Of a stretch of DNA of 64,000 nucleotides, positions 2,374 through 61,292 are shown piece after piece. The stretch is from Membranipora membranacea. Taxonomy: Eukaryota > Bryozoa > Gymnolaemata > Cheilostomatida > Membraniporidae. Positions within the stretch are counted from its first letter, which is position 1. Each line of letters begins with the position of its first letter. The translations under genes were made by a program, and so were the position numbers. The notes below the pieces were generated by a model, which worked only from the letters and a program-made list of their open reading frames with translations, searched no databases and was not told the DNA's origin. The stretch lies in assembly GCA_914767715.1 (NCBI GenBank), contig OU612069.1, positions 10,287,387 to 10,351,386 of the forward strand, in the 5' to 3' direction.

Positions 2374-5300
2374 CTGGAATAGAATTAAACTTATAGGATT
2401 ACTGGTATACAATAGAAAAATTGTGTTATATAACTTGCCATGGTTTTCCACGAACAAATTTCTTTATTTACCAGATGTTCCTACTGAAATGACGGAACCT
2501 TTCAACAATTATTTCAGGTCAATACTTATAGACATATAAAATAGGGGAACACATATTCTTGAACATCCGGTCATAGAATTTTTTTTGTAAGATTGGTGTG
2601 ATCAGGTAGGATTTTCACACATTGTCGTCATCATTATATCCAAACCGTCAGGTAAGCTTGGGTTGAGTTGGTCTTGAGTGTCAAGAAGTAATTTTAATCA
2701 ACTGTGCAGGCGACAAAATGACGAGACAACCTTGATTACCTATAGATTACTGTGCGGTGTATGATGAGATAATACTCTACTACTACTACTCTGGGAGGTA
2801 GAGGGGGAGTAGAATGACCACTAGATGGAGTCTTATGTAGTGATGATGTCGTAGATGAGGGGGCATAACTCAAGACTGTATAATAATAGTAAGAGGGTAT
2901 AAAATATTGATGCAATTATTTTTCCTATGTCCAAAGAACTTGACACTCTTAAGACCAACATTAATGTACCATGGTTATGTTGGTCCCAAGGGCGGTAAGT
3001 TCTTTGGACTTATCACAGGAAACCCCATGCCCTTCATTATGATGATTTAGCCCGAACAAAACATTTGACATGACTCGAAATGAAAGCATCAAATTTGTCC
3101 ATTTTGCTGCAGGACTTTGCAGCTGATTTCCCATGTTTTATGCTATCTACCTCCATACACATATCTGAGAATGGGATGTTGAGGAGGTGGGATCACAAAT
3201 TGATGAGTACACTATCCTATGGGATGTTTACTACACTGTTTTTACTTACTGTTGTGTGACAGCCAAACGGTCTAAATAAGGCTAACAAACACAATTAACA
3301 AATGTACCATTGAGAAGAAAACCGTAACTGTATATTTCTGAACAGACTGAAAGGAAAGGAACAACTGAACAGAATTTGTCGGACTACATTTTTCTTTGTT
3401 CTCTTTTTTTGTCTGTGTTTTGCTAAGATTTGATAGAATAGGCGACTTCAAGCTTTTTACTACAGTTGTGTAACCACAAATACATTAATTTTAGCAAAAT
3501 GATTTAGTGACTATAATGACTCAACAATTACCTGTTGGCCCTTAATATAGCTACCCTCTTATTATGGTAATCGGATGTCATGTCAAACACCGATTTAGGG
3601 GAAGACCACAATCTGCCACTGAAGCAATCAATGTTCCATTTATGCAAAAGTCAGATACCAGTCAGCAAGCCAGGCACATTATCTAGTGCAACCTACCATC
3701 CATCTACCAGTTGTGTAATACCAAGAAAACTACTGTGAACACGTTACACTCCTTAGCTGCAACCCATACTACTCTATTTACATGAATAACAATTTAAGTT
3801 AAAACACTGCTTCTGAAGAACCAGGAACTGCATTCACAGAAATACAGTGATCGAAAGCTTGCACAAAGTAAATCTTTGACTAGATGCTCTTTGCTCTGTA
3901 ATATTTTTTAGAGATTGAGATTAACTAAAGAGCTCGATCTTAGTATATCATGCTCAGCCTTACACCCCATCAGTATAGAGGGTAATATTATATTACTGCA
4001 GGCAGCAGCCATATCACCTGTCAAACTAAATGTACTACGTACGATACTTACACTGCGTACGGTATGTACATCACATACGGTATTTACATCTCGTATGGTA
4101 TGTACTTTGCGTATGGTACGTACATCACGTATGGTATGTACATTGCGTACGGTACTTACATCGCATACGGTATGTACATCACATACGGTATGTATGTACA
4201 TCTCGTATGGTATGTATGTACATCTCATATGATATGTACATCTCTTATGGTATGTACATCTCTTACGGTATGTGCACTGCGTATGGTACGTACATCACAT
4301 ACGGTATGTACATCTCATATGGTATGTACATCTCGTACGGTATGTAGATCTCGTACAGTATGTACACCGCGTACGTTACGTACACACTGTAGGGTATGTA
4401 GATCTCGTACGGTATGTACATCTCGTACGGTATGTTGTACATCGTGTACGATATGTACACAACAAACACTATGTATGTAGGCTATGTGGGCTACGCAAAA
4501 AAACACATAAAGTAGCTGTAGTAGGTTATCTTATGATGATATCATGCAACAAAAGCCATGTTATTTGTTTTCTCAAACTATACTCATTAGAATCATAGAT
4601 GAGGTGCCCTTCAGTATAAGGATGAGTAAATGTGTACCTAAGTGTCTAGTTATCTTTGTGATGACTTCACCAACTTTCAGTCTTGTTTCGGTTACGATAT
4701 TCTGATTGTTGAAGTTTTTGCACAGAGCCTCTAGGACTTTAATAGCTTTGGTATCTGACAGCGCTGATATGGCTACAAGTAGAACAAAATAATATTTATG
4801 TTGATAAGGAGCTTTTATAAGGACTGAGAGGTAAATTATGTTTACATGTAATAAATATAGGAGCTGTTCCTCATAAACACCTTCTAGAATATACATATAT
4901 AGGTTCTGATATTTGTAGTTATGAGGTTCTGATGATATAGTGTGCGTGTACACCTGCAATGACAGTGTTGTGTTGTGATGAAGATATATAACCGATACTA
5001 AGTATATAAGCTCACCGTTGATAGCTGAGAGGTATATGTATGTATCTGAGTGAGGTAAATGTTCTATCAGCAACGCTAGCAATGTCTCACTGTTATCCAG
5101 AGTTTGCTTATCGCGTCTATTAACATATTAAGCAAAAACTATACTTATTGGGCTTGATAATAGTATTTGCACTGTTCTAATCTGTGTGTTATCTCTCCAG
5201 TCCGGTTTGTAACACGCGCATATATGTACCCTATATGATTGTATCATAAACTTATAGATTTCTCTATAAGTTTATGGATTGTATGCATACATACCCAATG

Positions 5301-8300
5301 CCAAGTAATTATCGCCTCAAGATAGCTCAAATTTGGCCACACCATAACATACTCTCTAACCAACCCAATCCAAGCCCAATACCACATTTTAGAGGGATTT
5401 AAGTAAGCTTTGCAACCAGGACTGCCAACTTTTATAAGAGTGGATTTACCCTTTTTCCAATTCTGCTCTCTACTCTTATGCTTTTTTCAAAAAGTATAAT
5501 AATCTGCTCTACTCACTCAAGTTTGCACTCATGCCATGCCAACTTTTATATTGAATCACCTGCACCCGTCTTGTGCGTCACTACGGTGCTCAATAAACAC
5601 CAAGCCATATATATCCCCAGCGAAACTACTTTTTATCTACAAAAATAGATGGCAGCCCTTTTGGTTACCTTAAAATTTCTTGTGAAATCAGTAACAATGT
5701 TTGTCATCCATATTTTCAGGACTTTTGATCAAATTGTGTCAGCTATTTGATATTATACTTATAGGATAAGTTGGTACCACCTTTTGATTAGTTTAACGAG
5801 TTGTATCAGAGCATGTCCCTTAACAGCTATCAGTGAGTCACTGATCTCATCTATGGCTATCTCATACTTAGACTTTGATGATGAGGGAGTGTCGTGTGAC
5901 TGTGCATCATTTAACCTTGATGTGACATCTCCAAGAGACAAGTATTATCCTTCTTGGGTGGTCCGATAGGAAAAGAGCAAGTTGCTGATTGGTCACTTTT
6001 CACATGATTCAAGTTAGTGCTTCCATCATCCAGTACAGTGTCATTCAAATGAGACTCAACAGTACCTAATGGTTCCGCTAGGGTCATCATGGCAGGTGGT
6101 TCAGCTTGGGTGGCTGTTACAGATGGCTGGACTGATTTGTTGTCAGATTTGCTTGCTGTTTGTTTTTGCCCTTCTACAGATACCGAATCAATTGTTGATG
6201 ATTTGAGCCCCCTCCCCAACAACAAAGCTTGTCAAGACTGGGTAATGTTTCTGGTTTCCTGGACACCATCAGATTATGTCAGAATTGGCATATCGATCGC
6301 TACATTTGCTTGCCCTAAATCGGTTATATTAGGTGCCAACAGGAACTTAGTGACTCATTAAATCATTTGGCTAGGAGGAATGTGTTTGAGTAGTGATAGT
6401 CAGCCAGAGAAAAGGATACAAATAATAATTCTAGTCTGAGAAATTCTGTTCAGCTGTTCAGCAATTTACAGTTACCGTGATTTGAGCCACACAAGTCCTT
6501 GCGTTGCATTAGCAACACGTATATTTAACGCCAGCTCACATGTGTCCTGCGCCCCCTCAACCAATGATATCTTATTCAGAGGATCACTCAAATCTCTCAG
6601 AGATACCATATCACTATCACTCATCTGCAAATTCAAGTTTCTATTCTAAATAGAAATATTCAAAATTTAATCATCAAATATTAGTCATCCTTTTAACCAT
6701 TGTAAAATCAGTTACCACATTTTTTTTCGGACAGAGGTAGTATTTGCAGTATTATGACTTCTATGCTTGACATACATTGTGTTTTACTGTTCCTATCATT
6801 CTATGAAAGTCAGTACTGATTCAGGAAAGGAGTAACAGTACCCCTTGATTCAAGTGACAATTCAAAGACTTTGTCATAGATATGTCAAAGCTTCATACGC
6901 CCATCATCTGTTTTATACGACGACTGGCACTTAGAACATTACTTTAACATCGGATGCCCCACTGAGCAGTGCTGTTAGTAAACCAAGAGATAGGCTAAGA
7001 GTCTCATTGGAAGTCATATCACCCCCCAACTCTGTATTCTCAACACCTGCTAGAACTCTATCTAGAGTTGACTAAAAGCAAAAGAAAAGAACATAGTTTC
7101 CTGGCTGTTTACATCAGTTATATAACATTGACATATATGGTGAACGATTGTTTTTGGATCAGTATACAGCTAATTCCATCACTTTGTCAGTGCCAAAGCG
7201 TCGAACACTGCATACAGTGTTAGAAATTGTCTAGTCTGTAAATTCAAATCGCAGGCTTATTTTATACGACATGAGAAGTTACATTTTTTGGGGAATATTC
7301 AATTTCTTCGGAGATTTTTGTTGAGGCTCATCCATATTGCTTCAATAATTGTTTAATCAAACATCTTATATAAGAAGGTCTGAATAATATAATATTCTGT
7401 ACTTTCCGGGGTTTGCTGAACATTGTGTATGCTTTGTCTAATCGACCATTTTCAAACACAGTGTGTGGTATGGATTAACGCTTTGAGCTAACAAATCGAG
7501 GACGGATCCTTGTACTGACCAAAAGTCTATCCATTGTCACACAAATATCTTGAGTATAACTAATAGCCCCAAATAGGTTAACATGTCAGCAAAACAAATT
7601 ACACTTTAAATATAATAAATTTTCGCCTGTAGCCAAATTTTCAATAAACCAATTAGTTGAGGAACAAAACCTCTATAATTATAACTAAAGTGTTCTCTCA
7701 GTGAAATGATATGAAGAAAAGATTGGCAGCTCACCTTGACAAACATGATGATGTGTATGGGTTCTTTGAGACAAGCGGAAGAGTGATTCTCGCAGAGAGA
7801 AGATAATAATGACATCACTCTGAACTTTAAGAAGAGCAGTGATAACTCCGATAACGACCTGCCATCCACTGGATCTACAGGTACAGTCAGCAAACCAGTC
7901 ACATCCTGCAGTCAAACAATCCGTATACAAAATACATACAAATACAAGTACAATACTATTAAAGCACTGATCTACCTGCGACGAGGGTGAAAGTGATTAC
8001 ATTATCACATGTTATCATTGATGTAAAGATAAACCAATCAATCTGTCTGATCTGTAGCACATGTGACTGCTGGTAAATTTGCCACAATCAGCGGTGTGCA
8101 ATGGTATTTGAACTAAGGGATTGTGACACCGGATTGCTATGTTACAGAGCGTGCGAGCGGCCTTCTAACAGAGGGAGACTACTCCTTACTCCTACCTACC
8201 TACCTCTTACTGTCAGAGTTAGAGAATAGTTAGAGAATAAGTAACAGTAACAGGTTGATTTATAAGTTTTATCTGAGGACACCAGTTACACTATCTCTCT

Positions 8301-51987: not shown

Positions 51988-52030
51988 TTCATTCTAGACA
52001 GCTGAAGTGACAAGTTGTCTTTTCACAATT
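51988..52030 (+). repeat. Split repeat A1 (5' end of YR element)
   Basis: It begins TTCATTCTAGACAGCTGAAG and ends CTTTTCACAATT. It is the partner of A2 at 60240-60282. It includes the inverted core GACAAGTTGTC. Confidence 0.8.
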
Positions 52031-52063: not shown

Positions 52064-52135
52064 ATGGCTTCTAGAAGGCGTATCCCCAACCATTTGAACC
52101 AGGAAGTGGCACCTCAAGCTGAGAGGAATGTCCGG
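52064..52135 (+). CDS. Leader coding exon of the YR element
   Basis: This ATG lies 34 bases after A1. It opens 24 codons, MASRRRIPNHLNQEVAPQAE then RNVR, rich in Arg, ending exactly at a strong donor CCGG|GTAAGC in phase 0. Downstream acceptors before the SGNH, Gag and RT blocks also leave their frames in phase 0, so the same leader could be joined to each. The basic peptide could be an RNA-binding or nuclear-targeting tag; that is inference. Confidence 0.6.
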
Positions 52136-53200: not shown

Positions 53201-53563
53201 TAAACATGAGCAAAATGAATGAAACAGTGGTGTCTGTTCTGCTCGGGTATTTGGCCCCAAGTGGGTCGAATATGCGACACACTGACCCTCAGGAGTCATT
53301 AATCGCTGGATAGTCAGTTTTTGGATTATCAATATTTTATGGTTCTATTGTCATGAGATGCTTCATGGTGATCAACTGTGAGTATCTATCGCTCATTCCA
53401 GTATGTGATGGATATTTATTGGCACTACTTTTAAGGCCTATGTATTGTCTTGAATGGACTTAACCTGCAGAGGCTAAATTTGATTATTAAATGGTTGATG
53501 GTAAAATTATTGATGGTTAAAATATTTCATGGTATTTAGATACCAAACTGATTAACTTTGTAA

Positions 53564-53962
53564 CCCTCATAAATATGAGGTGATAACCCTCTGAGAGGTG
53601 ATTTAGGCCATGGTATATGATGTCTCCCAGGACTAGAGTGCCATTTGGTAATTTGTGACCCTCATGAATATGACGTGATAACCCTCTGAGAGGTGATTCA
53701 AGTGGCGTCCCTCAAGAATTTGAGGTGAAATAACTTTATGATGCTGAGGTGAGTTAATTTGTGCTTACTCTTTGCTATGTTGGTGTTGGCTTTGGCTCAA
53801 GTAATATATGTGATCCGTTTAACTTATTGTTGGCTGAATTGATACGGGCTTGCCAGTAACGCTTTGTTATGTGTTGACTAACCCTATTTGTTGCACTATA
53901 TTCCCAACAATGTGTGACCCTCATGTACTTGAGGTGATGACCCTCTGGTTGGTTAGAGGTGA
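53564..53962 (+). repeat. Cluster of seven CCCTC-GAGGTGA hairpins
   Basis: Units at 53564-53584, 53587-53602, 53659-53679, 53682-53697, 53709-53728, 53918-53938 and 53941-53962. Each has CCCTC, a loop of 3-10 nt, then GAGG and TGA(T). The loops differ (ATAAATAT, TGA, AAGAATT, ATGTACTT, TGGTTGGTTA) while stem and 3' TGA are kept. One unit has GACG, breaking one pair. They come mostly in long-loop/short-loop pairs. Confidence 0.75.
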
Positions 53963-54385
53963 GTCCATGCGGACATATAATCGTTGCTACAGCCAGAAGT
54001 CCAAAAGGTAAAAATCAACTGTTTTTTTTTGCTAGTTTGGCTTTGCATGTAAAACAATTGGATGTGGGCTATGTTTTGAATTGTGTTTATCAAGCTATCT
54101 GCATAATAAATACGCAACCCCAAAGGGCTCTGGAGTTATACAACACAGGGAAGCACTTCTTTAAGAGTTGAGCAACAGCTTTGTGGTGGCCATTACCTGT
54201 GGTATAATCGGCTTACTATAAACGCCCCACTTCATCCTGATGGGGAACCAGAGTTAAGGCTTTTTGGATTATCTGGCTGAGGGGAGGGAAATCAGGGTAG
54301 TTTAGTAATATACGCTTTAAATAATGTAATTCTCACTCATGCACTTATGGATTCATCGCTTTTCTCTCTTTATATTAACGCTATA

Positions 54386-54960
54386 CCGTAATCCCTCACC
54401 TATAGATCGATTTATAAGTGAAGGCGGCTCTAAGAGAGTAGCATATAGACGCGACTATCATTTGAAGCATTTTTTATATTTAGCTTGGACTAAAACCTAT
54501 TATGATCAATGTAGCTGAATAGCTCAGTGGTAAAATGTACGACTTGTAATCATGTGAAGCAGCTTTTCCCCAAAACTACTCGTTTGGAGTGAATGTGTGC
54601 CACAAAATTCAAATTTTTCAACAATCAGCATATCATATCTCTCTCACAGTCTTCCAAAATAAATAAAACATGCCAAGAACCTCTTACACCATTCAGCAGA
54701 AACTGGAAGTATTGAGAACAGTTGAAAAGAATAACAACCTTGACAAGACTGCAAGGGAATTGAACATTAATAGACACTTGATTCAAAGATGGAGAGCTTC
54801 CAAACATCAACTACTGATATGATTCACTTATTAGACACGGTGTCTTATAGCTGTGGGGTGTCTTATAGCTGTGGAGTGTCTTATAACTGGAGCATATTTA
54901 TTTTTTCTGAGGGGGGTGATTCACTTATAAGTCCGGTGACTTATAGGTGAGGTTTTACGG
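54386..54960 (+). mobile_element. pogo/Tigger-type MITE with TA duplication
   Basis: The ends CCGTAATCCCTCACCTATAG and (reversed) CCGTAAAACCTCACCTATAA are inverted repeats of ~45 bp, flanked by TA (54384-54385 and 54961-54962), as for Tc1/mariner/pogo elements. 575 bp. It carries an N-terminal transposase fragment (54670-54822), a tRNA-like A-box relic (54515-54530) and three GTGTCTTATAGCTGTGG-like repeats near its right end. Nested in the first intron of the YR element. Confidence 0.85.
54670..54822 (+). CDS. 50-residue HTH protein fragment of pogo-type transposase
   Basis: A complete 50-codon frame with its own ATG and TGA: MPRTSYTIQQKLEVLRTVEK, then LDKTARELNINRHLIQRWRA. This is the pattern of the N-terminal HTH (psq/Brinker-like) domain of pogo/Tigger transposases and CENP-B-like proteins: basic start, KLEVL helix, AREL-(N)IN recognition turn, QRW. 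No CENP-B second domain or DDE catalytic core follows, so it is either a truncated transposase or a free DNA-binding domain able to recognise the element's ends. The frame is undamaged, unlike most coding blocks nearby. Confidence 0.7.
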   Translation: MPRTSYTIQQKLEVLRTVEKNNNLDKTARELNINRHLIQRWRASKHQLLI

Positions 54961-55046
54961 TATATATAACAGCTGGGTAGGTGCAAGAATTAACATTTAA
55001 AGAATGGTGGTGCCTGTTTGCTTACAATTGTGCTTTCTATTTCCAG

Positions 55047-55568
55047 AATTGTTCTGGACTCATAATGGGGGATTCCCATGTGTCAAGACTGGTTAGATAC
55101 CAGCAAGAGCTCTTACACCACCTGAGTGGGGTTTCACTACAATTTGCGGAGAGAAGAGGGGCCGGCATAAGATGGGGAGAGAGGAATGCCCACTCGGCAA
55201 CAGATGTGGATGTGGTCATCTTGATGCTTGGAGGCAATGATCTCGACAGTGGCATGTCTGCAACTCAACTGGCTGACAGGATTGGTCATCTAGGACGGCA
55301 GATGGTGGACCAGTACAGGGCCCAGACTGTCGTCATAACTTCTCTGTGGCCAAGGTCCAACCCTCAGTACAATCTGAGAGCCAGGGAGTTTGCATCCATA
55401 ATGGAGCAGAGACACTTGGGAGATGAGGCGGTAACCTTTTGGCTCTGGGATAGAAGGCAACCGTGGAGAAACAGAGACGGCACCCACCTAACTGACCACG
55501 GCTACCGAACAGCCGTTCGATATCTCCAGGCCATCATTGTATGGGCAGCCCACCACAACCTCTGGTGA
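55047..55568 (+). CDS. SGNH/GDSL-type hydrolase of the YR element
   Basis: The acceptor TCTATTTCCAG leaves the frame in phase 0, so it can join the leader exon. 173 codons. SGNH blocks are all visible: block I GDSH (55068-55079, nucleophile Ser), block III GGND (55230-55241), block V DGTHLTDHGY (from 55476, catalytic Asp and His). The frame has no stops. SGNH esterase-like proteins are, to my knowledge, known accessory proteins of some Ngaro and CR1-type retroelements, with an unproven role. If spliced, it would begin with the Arg-rich leader; unspliced, the ATG at 55065 would start it. Followed 17 nt after its stop by the TATTAGT stem-loop. Confidence 0.85.
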   Translation, partial: NCSGLIMGDSHVSRLVRYQQELLHHLSGVSLQFAERRGAGIRWGERNAHSATDVDVVILMLGGNDLDSGMSATQLADRIGHLGRQMVDQYRAQTVVITSLWPRSNPQYNLRAREFASIMEQRHLGDEAVTFWLWDRRQPWRNRDGTHLTDHGYRTAVRYLQAIIVWAAHHNLW

Positions 55569-55585
55569 TTCCAGCAGATCTAAAT

Positions 55586-55600
55586 TCCGTATTAGTCGGA
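55586..55600 (+). other. TATTAGT stem-loop 1 (after SGNH)
   Basis: TCCG-TATTAGT-CGGA: a 4-bp stem, preceded by AAAT and followed by C-rich sequence, 17 nt after the SGNH stop codon. Confidence 0.75.
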
Positions 55601-56006
55601 CCTCACTCAACCATCATTTTATTTGCTGTATAGTTATTTTGTCCTTGTTAAATACCAACAAAACAATTCTCAAGACAAAAAGTTTATTTGAAATAAATGT
55701 ACATGAATTGTCGCAAATGAAGTGTTGTTATGATAGACAAAACAGTGGTGAAATACACAGCGTAGTAATAGTGATGTGTTATCAATAGCCGTGTCACAAG
55801 ATGACCATTGCCTAAAGTTCAAATTGTCGGCATCAGCTCATGTTTAGTTCGCAACATTCAAAAAATTTAATATTTCTGGGCGTCATTAATTTATGGAAAG
55901 GAAGTGCCCTGTTATTTCAAAGTATTGTGTATGTAACAATAAAAGGATATCCCGCCTTTTGCTGTAAAAGGAGTAGGGCAGTTTTCATTCTTATTATGAT
56001 TTACAG
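55601..56006 (+). other. Spacer between SGNH and Gag blocks
   Basis: AT-rich, no conserved frame. It has AATAAA at about 55695 (possible polyadenylation signal for the SGNH transcript) and ends in TTATTATGATTTACAG, the acceptor for Gag. Confidence 0.4.
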
Positions 56007-56831
56007 GAGACAACACGTAAGGCAACGTTGGATTCCAGCAGGAAGGGGAAGGCCCCGGTTCGCGGCTCTTCCAAGAGAAAGGCTTCTGAGCCTGAAGGTC
56101 CTGTACCTTCTACCTCCAGGGTTACAACCTCGGAGATCAACTCGAGCTGCTTTGAGGATTCAGAAGTGGAGGACGAGGTTCCGGTGAAGGTGCAGGCGAG
56201 CAACAAGAGGGTCAGGCCTCTGGGCTCCATGCCCATCGTCCCTACAACATCGGACGATGATAAAGTCAGAGAAAAAGTCCGACTGGGTAAGTTTGTGGAC
56301 TTTAAAAGCCTTCTTCCTCATCCTCATGGGCAAAAACCAAAGAAGCAATTCACCCTAAGTGACGGCTACTTCGAGGAGGTGGAAGACAATGAGAATCTGG
56401 CCGTCTTTTACAAATGGTTAGATGCATATGTCATATATATGAGCTTAACTCTGGAATTCTTTCCTGGCGAGGCTCAGGGCATGCTACGCCATCTTCAAAT
56501 TGTAAAAAGAATGCACGTGGCAGAGAAAGAGGCAGTCAAGTACAACTTCCAGTTTAGGAAACTGAAAGCCCAACATACAGATATAGTCTGGGGGGAGTAC
56601 CTTACAGAGCTGGCAAACAACATCCAGCAGCCAGTAAAGGAAGACACCAAAAAGACCAGCGACCAGGATAGATCGGGGGCCAAGCTTTCCCATAAAAGGA
56701 AGCTTTGTCACAAGTTTAACTCACACGAGGGGTGTAAGTTTGGACTGAGCTGCCGCTTCGCCCATAAATGTAAGGTGTGCTATAGCGCCCAACACCCAGA
56801 CTACAGATGCTCTAAACAAAAGGCTTCTTAA
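56007..56831 (+). CDS. Gag-like protein with CCCH zinc finger
   Basis: Open in phase 0 from the acceptor at 56006: ETTRKATLDSSRKGKAPVRG, then 275 codons in total to TAA. A basic Ser/Pro-rich N-terminus with acidic patches (SCFEDSEVEDEV) is followed by a central helical region (ENLAVFYKWLDAYVIYM, EAQGMLRHLQIVKRM). The C-terminus has a CCCH finger C-x8-C-x5-C-x3-H followed by a Cys/His knuckle (CKVCYSAQHPDYRC). This layout fits the capsid/nucleoprotein of Ngaro-like elements. There is no ATG near the start, which supports translation from the leader exon. Intact in this copy. Confidence 0.8.
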   Translation, partial: ETTRKATLDSSRKGKAPVRGSSKRKASEPEGPVPSTSRVTTSEINSSCFEDSEVEDEVPVKVQASNKRVRPLGSMPIVPTTSDDDKVREKVRLGKFVDFKSLLPHPHGQKPKKQFTLSDGYFEEVEDNENLAVFYKWLDAYVIYMSLTLEFFPGEAQGMLRHLQIVKRMHVAEKEAVKYNFQFRKLKAQHTDIVWGEYLTELANNIQQPVKEDTKKTSDQDRSGAKLSHKRKLCHKFNSHEGCKFGLSCRFAHKCKVCYSAQHPDYRCSKQKAS

Positions 56832-56854
56832 CTGTGCATGGTGATGTCAATAAT

Positions 56855-56869
56855 GCCGTATTAGTCGGC
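56855..56869 (+). other. TATTAGT stem-loop 2 (after Gag)
   Basis: GCCG-TATTAGT-CGGC, preceded by TAAT, 23 nt after the Gag stop codon. The outer two base pairs differ from copy 1 but still pair. Confidence 0.8.
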
Positions 56870-56978
56870 CTCCTCAGGATGGGGGGAGGGGTGGGGGTTT
56901 GGTCACATTTATGATTGGCACAGAAATAATTGTGTCTAGCAAGTTGCATAATGTTAACCTTTATTTTCAGATTTTTAG

Positions 56979-58546
56979 AGGTATAAGATACAAACTCCAG
57001 TCAGCCCATCCAAACTGGCAATTGAACTAGAGGGTTGTGTGGACAGAGAATTTATGGTAGAAGGGTTCTCGAACGGGTTTTCACTAGGCGTTCAAGAGAG
57101 CTGCTCAATATCAAAAACGGAAGTGAGGCTCAGACCAGCAAATACTGCACTATTGGCTAAGCTGAAAAAAGAACAAAAACACAAAAGAATTATAGGGCCT
57201 TTCGCAATCCCTCCGCTACATGATATGATAATATCTCCTCCTTATGTGATACCAAAACCATGTTGAACAAAGCACCGATTGATTTTCAATCTTTCATCCC
57301 CACAAGGTAGCTCTGTGAATGACTTCATCAAAGAGGAAAATAAATCAGTCCATTATTGTTCAGTTGAGGATGTTGCAAAGAGCATGGTAGCTAGACAGCC
57401 TCTTGGTAACGTGTGGCTAGCCAAAGTGGATTTAGCGGATGCCTATAGAATAGTCCCTATTCGGACCCAGGACTGGAAATACCAGAGAGGATGACAGGAT
57501 GCTTCCAATGGGCGCTTCATCATCTTGTAACATTTTCCAGAGGATTAGTGATGGCATAAAGTCAATGTTCCACAATGTTTACAGGGAAGATGCTGATGTG
57601 TTTAACTATCTAGATGACTTTCTGTTTATGGCGAGTTCAAAAGAGGCTTCTGATGCAGCCCTTAGTGCTTTCGAGGACCTTTGTCTTCGGGTAGAAATCC
57701 CCATAGCTGCTCATAAAACAGTTCGGGCAACTCAACGGCTAGTTTTCTTAGGTCTAGGGATAGACTCACAAAGAAGGACACTCTTTATACCAGCTGAGAA
57801 GAGGGTCAAAGTCCAAGAGAAGCTCACCTCATTTTTGCGGTTGCAGGCCCCCCGAGTTAAGTTGTGGCAGTCGATAGCACGCTCCGCGAATTACTTGGCA
57901 CAAGTGGTGTGAGCAGGACGCACTTACCTTAGTAGTGTGTATGGCGGATTAGCAGGTGTTTTGTCTCAGAATAAGAACAAGAGAAGGCGAGTGAGTGAGG
58001 AGGTGAAAGAGGATCTAAGGGTGTGGTGTGCTTTACTTGAGGCCCCTCCTGAAAAACCATACGGACATTGTCCTGGCGGATTTTACTTCATTCCCGCCGT
58101 TAATCACAGATGCATCAACTTCTTTGGGTTTTGGAGGCGTCTGGGGAGACCAGTGGTTTTACGGATCCTGGCCTCAGGTTGCAGTGCCTAATATAGCATT
58201 ACTGTTCCCCATAGTGATTGCTCTCCTGATGCTTCAGGAGTGTGTGGCCAACTGTTCCATTCGAGTGTTCACCGACAACATGGCCCTGGTCGCCGTTATC
58301 AACAAGCTATACAGTAAGGAACCTGCTCTACGTAGGATGCTTCGCCACATTGCAAAGCTCTGCCTGAACAAGAATATTTACATCTCCGCATTCCATGTGA
58401 AAGGTGTGGATAATATCGGTCCAGATATCCTATCAAGAGGCAAAATAGAGAAATTTCGGCTTACGTTTCCTGCTATGAGATCAGATCCAATAGTCATCCC
58501 CCACCATCTCGACCCAATCAACTCGGGTTTCATTACATGGATCTAA
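56979..58546 (+). pseudogene. Ngaro-like reverse transcriptase-RNase H, interrupted
   Basis: The acceptor TTTTAG at 56978 leaves phase 0. RT: GPFAIPPLHDMIISPPYVIP, TGA at 57264-57266, then LIFNLSSPQGSSVNDFI, motif A KVDLADAYRIVPI, TGA at 57492-57494 with a frame change, LPMGASSSCNIF, the YLDD catalytic box at 57607-57618, TGA at 57910-57912, then a frame change near 58060-58090. RNase H: ITDASTSLGFGGVWG and VFTDNMALVAV with catalytic Asp residues, then FHVKGVDNIGPDILSR. The last block ends at TAA 58544-58546. Core motifs survive but no continuous frame does. All three interrupting codons are TGA. Confidence 0.85.
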
Positions 58547-58563
58547 CAAACAGTTATCGCAAT

Positions 58564-58578
58564 GACGTATTAGTCGTC
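58564..58578 (+). other. TATTAGT stem-loop 3 (after RT-RNase H)
   Basis: GACG-TATTAGT-CGTC, preceded by CAAT, 17 nt after the stop codon. A second small hairpin CCCT...AGGG follows at once (58578-58592). Confidence 0.8.
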
Positions 58579-58700
58579 CCTTGTCAGCAGGGCATTTCTT
58601 CACCCGTGGCGAGGGTTAAATTAGTTTCTTCTTGACCTTATAATAATTATGTATCGGTACATTTAATGATATATTCAATTCTTTCCTCTTCTTTTTGTAG

Positions 58701-59562
58701 AACTTGAAGAAGAAGTGGACAGACTGATCGGTGCATCAGTATGCCCAGCGTCTGCAAAGATTTATGAAAAATATTTTAACAAATTCAAAAAGTTCTGTGA
58801 TGGCATGGACCTTTCTTACCAGACAGAAGCCTGTAAATCTTCGGTGGAGTTGTGGATTACACATCTGAAGAAAGAGGGCCTTGCTTACAGTACAGTACTG
58901 ACTCACATCTCCGCCCTACGCCATTCTTTTCGCAAGTTAGACCTAAAAGTATCCCTGGACTCAGGAAGACTCAAGATGCTGCTGAAAGGGCTTAGGAATG
59001 AGTATACAGCAGGCACGAAAACTGCAGTGTCTTCCAGTCATCTGCTCAGACTTGACAGGGCAGCTGAAATACTTGCTTCTAGAGTTGCGTGCCAGTTTCG
59101 CTGCATGATGGCAGTTAGCTTTTTTACGGGTTTCTTCGACCATCAGAGTTTTGCACCACAGCTAGCTCCCATGCCCTTCTGTTCGGAGATGTGCATTGGT
59201 CAAAGGATAAAACCTCTCATTTAACTCTGAGGTTGTTCAAACACTCTAAGACAGAGGCTAGGGTCAAACTTGTTGACAACTCCGGCGAACCCTTGAAACC
59301 AGTGCTGTTGCTACAGCAATACCTGGATTTGTTTGGGCATAAACTCCCTGAGTCACCACTCTTTGATGTTTCCGCCCAGGAGTTTGGGAAAATATTACAG
59401 TATGTAGCTGGTAGAGCGGGGATAAAGTCAAAGCTCACACCGCACTGTTTCCGTCAAGGAGGGGCTACTTTGGCTAGAAAGAGAGGATGGACCGCAGCTC
59501 AGATACAGGTGCACGGCAGGTGGAATTCAGAGGCCTACTTAAGTTATATTAAACATAACTGA
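58701..59562 (+). pseudogene. Tyrosine recombinase of the YR element, one frame break
   Basis: It follows the strong acceptor CTTCTTTTTGTAG. The N-terminal core-binding domain reads SAKIYEKYFNKFKKFC, VELWITHLKKEGLAYSTV, LTHISALRHSFRKLD. The catalytic domain follows after a frame change at about 59140-59200: CRQGG-type box as HCFRQGGATLARKRG (59443 on, His and second Arg) and HGRWNSEAYLSYI with the nucleophile Tyr. The first catalytic Arg, expected just after FFTGFF, is not seen because the sequence is scrambled there. The reading frame at the acceptor is one base off the phase-0 leader, unlike the three other blocks. Confidence 0.8.
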
Positions 59563-59682
59563 TACTTTATTGGGCTGTGTATTTGGCGAAATGGAGTTCC
59601 GTTATAAACTCCTCTCCTTTGGTGCTAAATTTTCCGCATTTTACTAAAGTATCGAGGCCAAATTTCCTCCTATAAAGTTCTT

Positions 59683-59866
59683 GCCCTGCCCTGCCCTGCC
59701 CTGCCCTGCCCTGCCCTGCCCTGCCCTGCCCTGCCCTGCCCTGCCCTGCCCTGCCCTGCCCTGCCCTGCCCTGCCCTGCCCTGCCCTGCCCTGCCCTGCC
59801 CTGCCCTGCCCTGCCCTGCCCTGCCCTGCCCTGCCCTGCCCTGCCCTGCCCTGCCCTGCCCTGCCC
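59683..59866. repeat. (CCTGC)n pentanucleotide tract, ~37 copies
   Basis: A perfect 5-bp tandem repeat. B2 has only GCCCTGCCC at the same place, so the tract expanded within B1 after the two repeats formed. Apparent long reading frames here are by-products. Confidence 0.97.
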
Positions 59867-59927
59867 AGCAACTTACTGTACTTACTAAAATGTTTATTTC
59901 TAACTTATTGGGGGTTAACCAGGAAAT

Positions 59928-59942
59928 GGCGTATTAGTCGCC
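59928..59942 (+). other. TATTAGT stem-loop 4 (in B1)
   Basis: GGCG-TATTAGT-CGCC preceded by AAAT. It is followed by a CCCCCT...AGGGGG hairpin (59943-59960). Confidence 0.8.
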
Positions 59943-60239
59943 CCCCTCCTATAGGGGGACCCCCAGCTATCTTGTTAATCATTGAGGTAAGAAAAAATAC
60001 AGAGTTTTTTACACCTAAAGAACTCATTTTTTCTTGAGCAATGTGACAAGGCTCAGTTATTTAATAACACAGTACGGTGTTATAACTGGTAAAATTTACT
60101 AGCTTTAATCTGGCCTCAGAGCCTCATACTTTGTTGCTATCTTATCTTACCTAAAGCATTATCCTGTACCACGGCGCACCTTATAGCGAGTTTATGCAAA
60201 TTTACTTATCTCGTCAGTTCGCGGGTCTTTCTCATCCCT

Positions 60240-60282
60240 TTCATTCTAGACAACTGAAGTGACAAGTCGTCTTTTCACAATT
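60240..60282 (+). repeat. Split repeat A2
   Basis: TTCATTCTAGACAACTGAAG to CTTTTCACAATT, the partner of A1 at 51988-52030, lying between B1 and B2. Confidence 0.8.
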
Positions 60283-60361
60283 CCCACCCTCCCGCCCTAA
60301 AATACTACCTTCTGTTACTATATTTCTCAGTGTGTGAAAGAGGACTTGGGTGCATGTGTAG

Positions 60362-60578
60362 TTGGTGCTAAATTTTCCGCCTTTTCTAAAGTATAGAGGC
60401 CGAATTTCCTCCTATAAAGTTTTTGCCCTGCCCATGCTGTTCTCCAGCAACTTACTGTACTTACTAAAATGTTTATTTCTAACTTATTGGGGGTTAACCA
60501 GGAAATGGCGTATTACTCGCCCCCCCTTCTATAGGGGAACCCCCAGCTATGTTGTTAATCATTGAGGTAAGAAAAAAT
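60362..60578 (+). repeat. Split repeat B2 (3' end of YR element)
   Basis: A direct repeat of B1. It keeps the stem-loop (GGCG-TATTACT-CGCC at 60507-60521, one loop change) and the following CCCC...GGGG hairpin. Past 60578 it runs into sequence shared with the fold-back arm tip. Confidence 0.9.
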
Positions 60579-60688
60579 CACTGTTTTTACACCCTCCAGT
60601 GATGTCGCGTCACTATAATTAAGTGCCTAACTGCCTCAATGCTAATGCTCCATACAGTGTCCTGTCTAGGTTTATTATTAAGTCTATG

Positions 60689-61292
60689 TGTTCAACTCAG
60701 TGAGATAAACACTTTCGCGCGTTTTAACGACTTATTTCGCTATAACTTCGCCAATTTTGTCCGATCATCCCGATATTAGCGCCAAAAGACTCGCAGTGCA
60801 AAGCTGAGTCAGAATATGTGTTTCAATTTGAAAGTCTTTCAAAAACCGTACATTTTTCACCATGATGCTCAACTCAGTGAGATAAACACTTTCGCGCGTT
60901 TTAACGACTTTTTTCGCTATAACTACGCCAATTTTTGTCCGATCATCCCGATATTAGCGCCAAAAGATTCGCAGCACAAAGTTGAGTCTGAATATGTGTT
61001 TCAATTTGAAATTTGAAAGCCTTTCAAAAACCGTACTTTTTTCACCATGATGCTCAACTCAGTGAGATAAACACTTTCGCGCGTTTTAACAACATTTTTC
61101 GCTATAACTTGGCCAATTTTTGTCCGATCGTCCCAATATTAGCGCCAAAAGATTCGCAGCGCAAAGCTGAGTCTGAATATGTGTTTCAATTTGAAATTTG
61201 AAAGTTTTTCAAAAACCGCACTTTTTTCTACAAGATGCTCAACTCAGTGAGATTAACACTTTCGCGCGTTTTAACAACTTTTTTCGCTATAA
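60689..61292. repeat. Degenerate satellite units, right edge
   Basis: About three and a half diverged units (CCAATTTTTGTCCGATC, ATTAGCGCCAAAAGA, TTTCAAAAACCG). They resemble the degenerate units at 49,900-50,218 more than the array core, as expected for an old array edge into which the composite element inserted. Confidence 0.9.

Follow-up and report, generated by a model that had tools for sequence, protein, structure and literature searches.

A covarying hairpin recurs through a Ngaro-type retrotransposon of Membranipora membranacea and may mark mRNA 3' ends

How four proteins are expressed from one promoter in Ngaro-like elements is, to our knowledge, a question that has not been studied. 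It is raised by a 64,000-nt stretch of the Membranipora membranacea genome (G000:C5:10287387-10351386, in a eukaryote assembly of 339 Mb and 18 contigs), the whole of which we call the window. Judged by its sequence, the window holds a tyrosine-recombinase (YR) retrotransposon of the Ngaro type, with the gene order SGNH–Gag–reverse transcriptase/RNase H (RT/RH)–YR and split direct repeats, and a 15-nt hairpin recurs along it. As an RNA element present once per predicted mRNA, this hairpin would offer a concrete, testable answer.

The hairpin and its covariation

A sequence-only reading of the window had reported five copies of the hairpin, and their coordinates, letters and flanks (AAT directly before and C directly after, in all five) were confirmed, as were the distances of three copies from the stop codons of SGNH, Gag and RT/RH (Table 1). 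The two end copies, described as lying in terminal repeats, sit in the direct repeats B1 and B2. Each hairpin has a 4-bp stem and a 7-nt loop, and the 11-nt core matched five times in the window and in none of 100 shuffles. Across the genome the bare core is not rare (221 places, 94 + 127, versus 331, 171 + 160, for the reversed control), so genome counts need the flanks: the flanked pattern AATNNCGTATTASTCGNNC occurs at 163 places (70 + 93), and its reversed control at none. Among 100 listed of these 163 places, decayed copies included, both outer pairs were Watson–Crick in 87 (GG/CC 62, GA/TC 14, TC/GA 6 and GC/GC 5). Thirty core loci were excised, and here both outer pairs were Watson–Crick in 25, one in 3 and none in 2; the core loci L006 and L011, whose outer bases do not pair, look like chance matches. 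At L046 (C1:21991058) and L047 (C1:22208113), the hairpin stands inside strongly diverged flanks; L047 keeps ACCAGGAAAT upstream and TTAATCATTGAGGTAAG downstream of it, the remainder of its B repeat being altered.

Searches with RNase H, Gag and SGNH yielded the window family, F1, together with no fewer than four groups more distantly related to it. On contigs C1–C6 the exact core was present within 80 nt past F1-like gene ends in 6 of 9 cases for SGNH, 5 of 8 for Gag and 10 of 15 for RT (gene ends with at least 68% identity and a match reaching the last residues; past C5:25.19 Mb, presence was judged by the stricter AATNNCGTATTASTCGNNC listing). One locus scored as a miss for SGNH and RT, L036, has both hairpins with one core letter changed, that of RT after an extra 1.2 kb. 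The group F5, located chiefly on C8 at 16.36–17.00 Mb, is 44–51% (Gag), 38–47% (RH) and 46–51% (SGNH) identical to F1 over long matches and bears the hairpin after all three genes (its SGNH and RT stops were located by likeness to F1). After F5 Gag it reads GCCG-TATTAGT-CGGC in L063 and L064, with the loop TATTAAT in L065; after RT it reads GCCG-TATTTGT-CGGC in L067 and GCTG-TATTAGT-CGGC in L068, and is broken in L066; after SGNH it reads GTCG-TATTAGT-CGAC in L077, L078, L079 and L081, with one side altered in L080 and two core letters altered in L075. Thirteen F5 RNase H places fall within ~0.65 Mb (G000:C8:16.36-17.00 Mb) on one strand, a segmental array and not dispersed insertions. The SGNH end of another relative, L076, had no hairpin within 120 nt. 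The expectation that related elements carry the motif held for F5 but not for F2–F4, in which none of 11 stretches had the core with fewer than three mismatches (after RT, five in F2, two in F3 and one in F4; after Gag, one in each); in one case in F4, an AATAAA stands 16 nt past the RT stop, roughly where F1 has its hairpin. Present in F1 and F5 and missing from the F2–F4 stretches tested, the hairpin thus characterizes a single clade, not elements of this kind in general.

Covariation was assessed over eight ungapped sites, seven of them distinct, from the two families (a single row was chosen for every site of a family, L046 was added, and decayed copies were excluded). Over the seven distinct sites, all 28 pair cells were standard; the outermost pair is G–C or U–A, and the second takes all four forms (C–G, A–U, G–C and U–A). 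One of 500 shuffles reached the alignment in paired cells, double-changed cells, pair types or covariation score, and sliding the structure along the alignment gave at most 57% standard pairs. Compensated changes separate the families at the SGNH site (TC/GA in F1 versus GT/AC in F5) and at the RT site (GA/TC versus GC/GC). When the 3' untranslated regions (UTRs) of F1 and F5 were aligned with the hairpin in place, 0 (Gag), 9 (SGNH) and 32 (RT) of 500 shuffles aligned as well; with the hairpin removed, the numbers were 3, 456 and 205. As the SGNH and RT UTRs without it align no better than shuffles, the hairpin alone is common to the two families there, and the Gag UTRs additionally share a C-rich and then a G-rich stretch. 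The earlier proposal of a selected, covarying structure is therefore borne out by recurrence in F5, by the compensated SGNH and RT changes and by the 28 standard pair cells. That selection has kept the hairpin is well supported, and with covariation over two families the structural claim is strong irrespective of function.

Predicted transcripts and candidate functions

SGNH, Gag, RT and YR look like alternative exons. A pyrimidine-rich CAG or TAG precedes every one of the four genes; the phase-0 donor of a short leader exon continues in frame into SGNH (NCSGLIMGDSH) and Gag (ETTRKATLDS), and a phase-1 donor within Gag matches the RT (56971) and YR (58701) acceptors. With the acceptors in phase with two donors, four mRNAs are predicted, with one hairpin each. 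Each predicted last exon has one hairpin ahead of the next acceptor (YR uses the B1 copy), and at all five internal sites with an acceptor read (SGNH, Gag and RT of F1; Gag and RT of F5) the hairpin comes after the stop and before the next acceptor. In P0014 (ENA; longest contig 1507 nt), the N-part of Gag is fused to the RT exon in a manner matching the predicted sites. Reading GTATTAGT as a 5' splice site was rejected, as it would make a poor donor and clear donors are present elsewhere.

The distance from stop to hairpin varies from 2 nt (F5 RT) through 17, 23, 34–67 (F5 Gag), 91–107 (F5 SGNH) and 201 nt (B1 of L041) to ~365 nt (window B1, past the YR stop). Placement just after a stop codon, a feature noted in the sequence-only reading, is thus not conserved, which rules out an element for stop-codon readthrough or termination and fits an element of the 3' UTR end. 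Neither AATAAA nor ATTAAA occurs within 60 nt on either side at the 11 sites checked (upstream of the F5 RT site, over 26 nt only) or in the F5 SGNH stretches examined. A G-rich tract (56878-56898) lies downstream of the window's Gag hairpin, and the G-rich stretch that follows both Gag hairpins resembles the G-rich downstream elements of poly(A) sites. On the strength of the variable stop distance, the absent AATAAA and ATTAAA and the G-rich stretch, we take mRNA 3'-end formation as the most likely function. The reading we tentatively favour, at a confidence a little short of even, is that the hairpin acts as an AAUAAA-less 3'-end signal of the alternative terminal exons. The suggestion that it marks mRNA 3' ends had been made before; the predicted exon structure fits, but the end positions themselves, like real splicing at most junctions, the promoter and a binding factor, are what we infer from sequence.

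On this 3'-end reading, AAU-NNCG-UAUUAGU-CGNN would be a cis-acting RNA element near the 3' end of every alternative terminal exon. A promoter in A1 would produce a transcript beginning with the leader exon (24 codons, then the donor), which would be spliced onto the SGNH or the Gag exon, and the donor within Gag would be spliced onto the exon of RT or of YR. All four mRNAs would end shortly past a hairpin of their own, which would replace AAUAAA by recruiting 3'-end processing or by shielding the end, and genomic RNA would arise by readthrough of all hairpins. The bolder proposition that one YR clade invented a hairpin-dependent, AAUAAA-independent 3'-end signal, with two donors and four acceptors letting a single promoter yield four mRNAs that each end separately, we consider somewhat unlikely. 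If true, it would describe a compact operon-like eukaryotic unit with one reusable 15-nt terminator hairpin; if 3' ends are formed without AAUAAA, the hairpin would found a class of its own among eukaryotic mRNA 3'-end signals and would provide a small tool for terminating transcripts.

Several observations count against 3'-end formation or against the structure and exons that it presupposes. The five folded stretches are not clearly more stable than shuffles (z = -1.24, 0.24, -0.81, -0.38 and -0.38), the described stem is the minimum-free-energy fold in two of the five, the RT site adopts a shifted register and the SGNH-site hairpin is weak by itself (-3.9 kcal/mol); with energies this low and uninformative, the case for the hairpin is one of conservation and covariation, not of energy. 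Pairs changed on both sides, a less striking measure, were matched by 34 of 500 shuffles. F2, F3 and F4 have the same gene order (SGNH, Gag, RT) as F1 without the hairpin, so such elements can dispense with it, and no hairpins were found for the unplaced end repeats of F5, two stretches chosen by estimate having contained no SGNH end and no B repeat. The nearest AATAAA past the SGNH hairpin, at 55692 (~90 nt downstream), means that the SGNH end could be canonical. Only the Gag–RT junction has backing other than its splice signals, namely P0014 at the protein level; no fusion to Gag is seen in the YR homologues P0015 and P0016, from a search bounded at ~320 residues, which a long fusion would escape. 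The window and L035 contain the exact Gag donor string, which was found in neither L036 nor L037 (L037 matches Gag only from residue 194 onwards).

In an alternative that we regard as unlikely, the hairpin would be recognized by the Gag or RT of the element itself, for packaging or template choice. Conserved 3' hairpins serve template choice for some LINE (long interspersed element) RTs, the B1 and B2 copies mean that any genomic RNA would contain a hairpin, a CCCH-like finger (under the Pfam cut-off) is present in Gag, and the rearrangement junctions of L029, L050 and L052 lie ~8–14 nt 5' of the hairpin, where these deletions perhaps reflect template switching. Templating on all spliced mRNAs would, however, yield useless cDNAs, the internal hairpins are passed through in whole-element copies, and three junctions are few when L039, L041, L020, L021 and L054 break elsewhere. 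Quite improbable, in our view, is a stability element that guards mRNAs whose long 3' regions contain introns against nonsense-mediated decay: Rous sarcoma virus has a stability element after gag, and the hairpins follow stop codons upstream of predicted acceptors, yet their spacing from the stops is not conserved and the YR copy stands in a repeat, distant from its stop.

Another alternative is a role in DNA, as a tyrosine-recombinase core site or a cruciform (both suggested earlier) or as a dyad bound by protein; the short dyad with its spacer of 7 nt, the YR gene of the element and the copies in the end repeats would suit it. In L041, in which both ends could be read, the element/flank junction nevertheless falls outside the motif: A1 and B2 meet the flank at AATA, and the B1–A2 joint has the same letters, ~55–60 nt from the hairpin, which is why we reject a recombinase core site. 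Other listed B copies continue past the hairpin to the same border, except L030–L033, and the outer bases change without losing complementarity, something that a dimer reading the sequence would not require; we consider DNA function very improbable. Barely credible is spread without selection, by short conversion with palindrome correction or by chance: the stem is short and its energy weak, but the 163 AATNNCGTATTASTCGNNC places against none for the reversed control, and recurrence at corresponding positions in F5, whose proteins are about half identical and two of whose three UTRs are otherwise unalignable, speak against it. Two further candidates were dropped. Pairing of the loop with a branch site lacks its partner, as ACTAATA is absent from the plus strand of window 53301-60600, and AATNNCGTATTAGTCGNNC had four matches in viral contigs, with ~120 nt around each unlike the element; the RT piece and a Gag alignment also found no relatives in viral contigs.

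The host element and its copies

Table 1. Hairpins, repeats and predicted exons of the element, by position in the window
Feature	Position	Strand	Details
A1 remnant	51988..52030	+	last 43 nt, remainder absent in window copy; 95% identical to A2
Predicted leader exon	52064..52135	+	24 codons from ATG; ends CGG/GTAAGC (donor, phase 0); 2 of 72 letters differ from L035
Predicted SGNH/GDSL hydrolase exon	55047..55568	+	through TGA; acceptor CTATTTCCAG/AATTGT, phase 0; Pfam and phase
Hairpin TCCG-TATTAGT-CGGA	55586..55600	+	starts 17 nt past SGNH stop
Predicted Gag exon	56007..56831	+	C-terminal CCCH-like finger; acceptor TGATTTACAG/GAGACA, phase 0; homology and phase
Predicted Gag-internal donor	56286/56287	+	CTGG/GTAAGT, phase 1; splice-signal reading
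Hairpin GCCG-TATTAGT-CGGC	56855..56869	+	starts 23 nt past Gag stop
Predicted RT/RNase H exon	56971..58546	+	frame broken; acceptor TTTATTTTCAG/ATTTT, phase 1; RVT_1, P0014 and phase
Hairpin GACG-TATTAGT-CGTC	58564..58578	+	starts 17 nt past RT/RH stop
Predicted YR exon	58701..59562	+	frame broken; acceptor CTTTTTGTAG/AACTTG, phase 1; sub-cut-off Pfam, P0015 and phase
B1 repeat	59619..59998	+	holds expanded CCCTG tandem run, ~59681-59865
Hairpin GGCG-TATTAGT-CGCC	59928..59942	+	in B1; assigned to YR exon in model
A2 repeat	59993..60282	+	part common to A1 of other copies; repeat comparison
B2 repeat	60362..60578	+	element end; repeat comparison
Hairpin GGCG-TATTACT-CGCC	60507..60521	+	in B2

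The repeats of L041 (A1 3306-3596, B1 5307-5522, A2 5517-5807 and B2 5886-6099) are split direct repeats of the Ngaro kind, in the arrangement A1–open reading frames–B1–A2–B2; L035 supplies A1 and the 5' part. Pfam identified the SGNH/GDSL hydrolase (Lipase_GDSL_2, 2.6e-10) and the RT (RVT_1, 4.2e-10 on one piece), whereas the RNase H part, without a Pfam match, was assigned by position and likeness. The window YR matched Phage_int_SAM_1 (4.7e-4) and Phage_integrase (0.003) under the Pfam cut-off, as did the C-terminal finger of Gag zf-CCCH, and the 80% identical YR homologue P0015 has PF00589 and PF02899. No methyltransferase-like domain was matched by Pfam among eight pieces, with broken frames. 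An insertion with 23-nt inverted ends (54382-54964) and interrupted RT and YR reading frames indicate that the window copy is not intact.

The CCCTG run of window B1 (~180 nt) is present neither in B2 nor in the B1 of L041, and a tandem repeat of ~180–185 nt adjoins the 3' side of the element (60648-61292). About 43–60 nt of the 3' flank recur at the 5' border in two 5'-truncated copies (window, 51936-51987/60579-60621; L038, 5134-5193/7363-7422), in the manner of a long target-site duplication; nothing similar was seen at the other borders (29 scanned, window included). In the internally deleted copies L029, L039 and L041, A1 ends at a common point (window 60282/60283, ..CACAATT) joined to differing inner places (~58550, 57908 and 57914), which may reflect the addition of A1 to 5'-truncated cDNA. 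Lone A–B units of ~580 nt, with no further element piece in the 3-kb locus (L012, L024, L026, L034 and others), are possibly a non-autonomous element mobilised by YR. Four B copies (L030–L033) break off at one common position within the repeat and pass into another sequence common to all four, forming a shared chimeric repeat.

Comparison with known systems

Ngaro-type YR retrotransposons are reportedly the subject of a 2004 account by Goodwin and Poulter. In the accessible parts of three papers on such elements (PMC9210276, PMC8547959 and PMC4157794), the same Gag, RT/RH, YR and SGNH genes and A1–ORFs–B1–A2–B2 repeats (ORFs, open reading frames) are found. The window element differs in having SGNH first, which follows YR in the amphibian elements of PMC9210276, and in that its genes are predicted alternative exons. 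In the same parts of the texts, neither stem-loop nor hairpin is used as a word in PMC9210276 or PMC8547959, and neither stem nor hairpin in PMC4157794. The statement that the hairpin was previously undescribed agrees with the Ngaro/DIRS-type literature as far as its accessible text goes (including PMC8547959, PMC9210276, PMC4157794 and PMC2632668), in which no such element was found; its absence from print is unproven.

In the plant element EVD, a single retroelement transcript also gives rise to a spliced, early-ended mRNA for one protein (PMC8892269, in the portion available), and a splicing-coupled early end is what we predict for the window element. EVD has one early end versus the three internal ends predicted here, the element classes are unrelated, and a common hairpin is not named in that portion of PMC8892269.

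No gathering-level Rfam match was obtained anywhere in the window. The histone mRNA 3' stem-loop is likewise a short hairpin with a conserved loop, near mRNA ends without AAUAAA (ends that are predicted in our case). That stem-loop has a 6-bp stem and a 4-nt loop, in contrast to the 4 bp, 7-nt loop and other sequence of the window hairpin, which is thus not of the histone type. Pairs of LINEs and SINEs (short interspersed elements) share a conserved 3' hairpin, present once at the RNA 3' end; the element described here resembles them in having a conserved small retroelement hairpin and differs in placing it after each gene.

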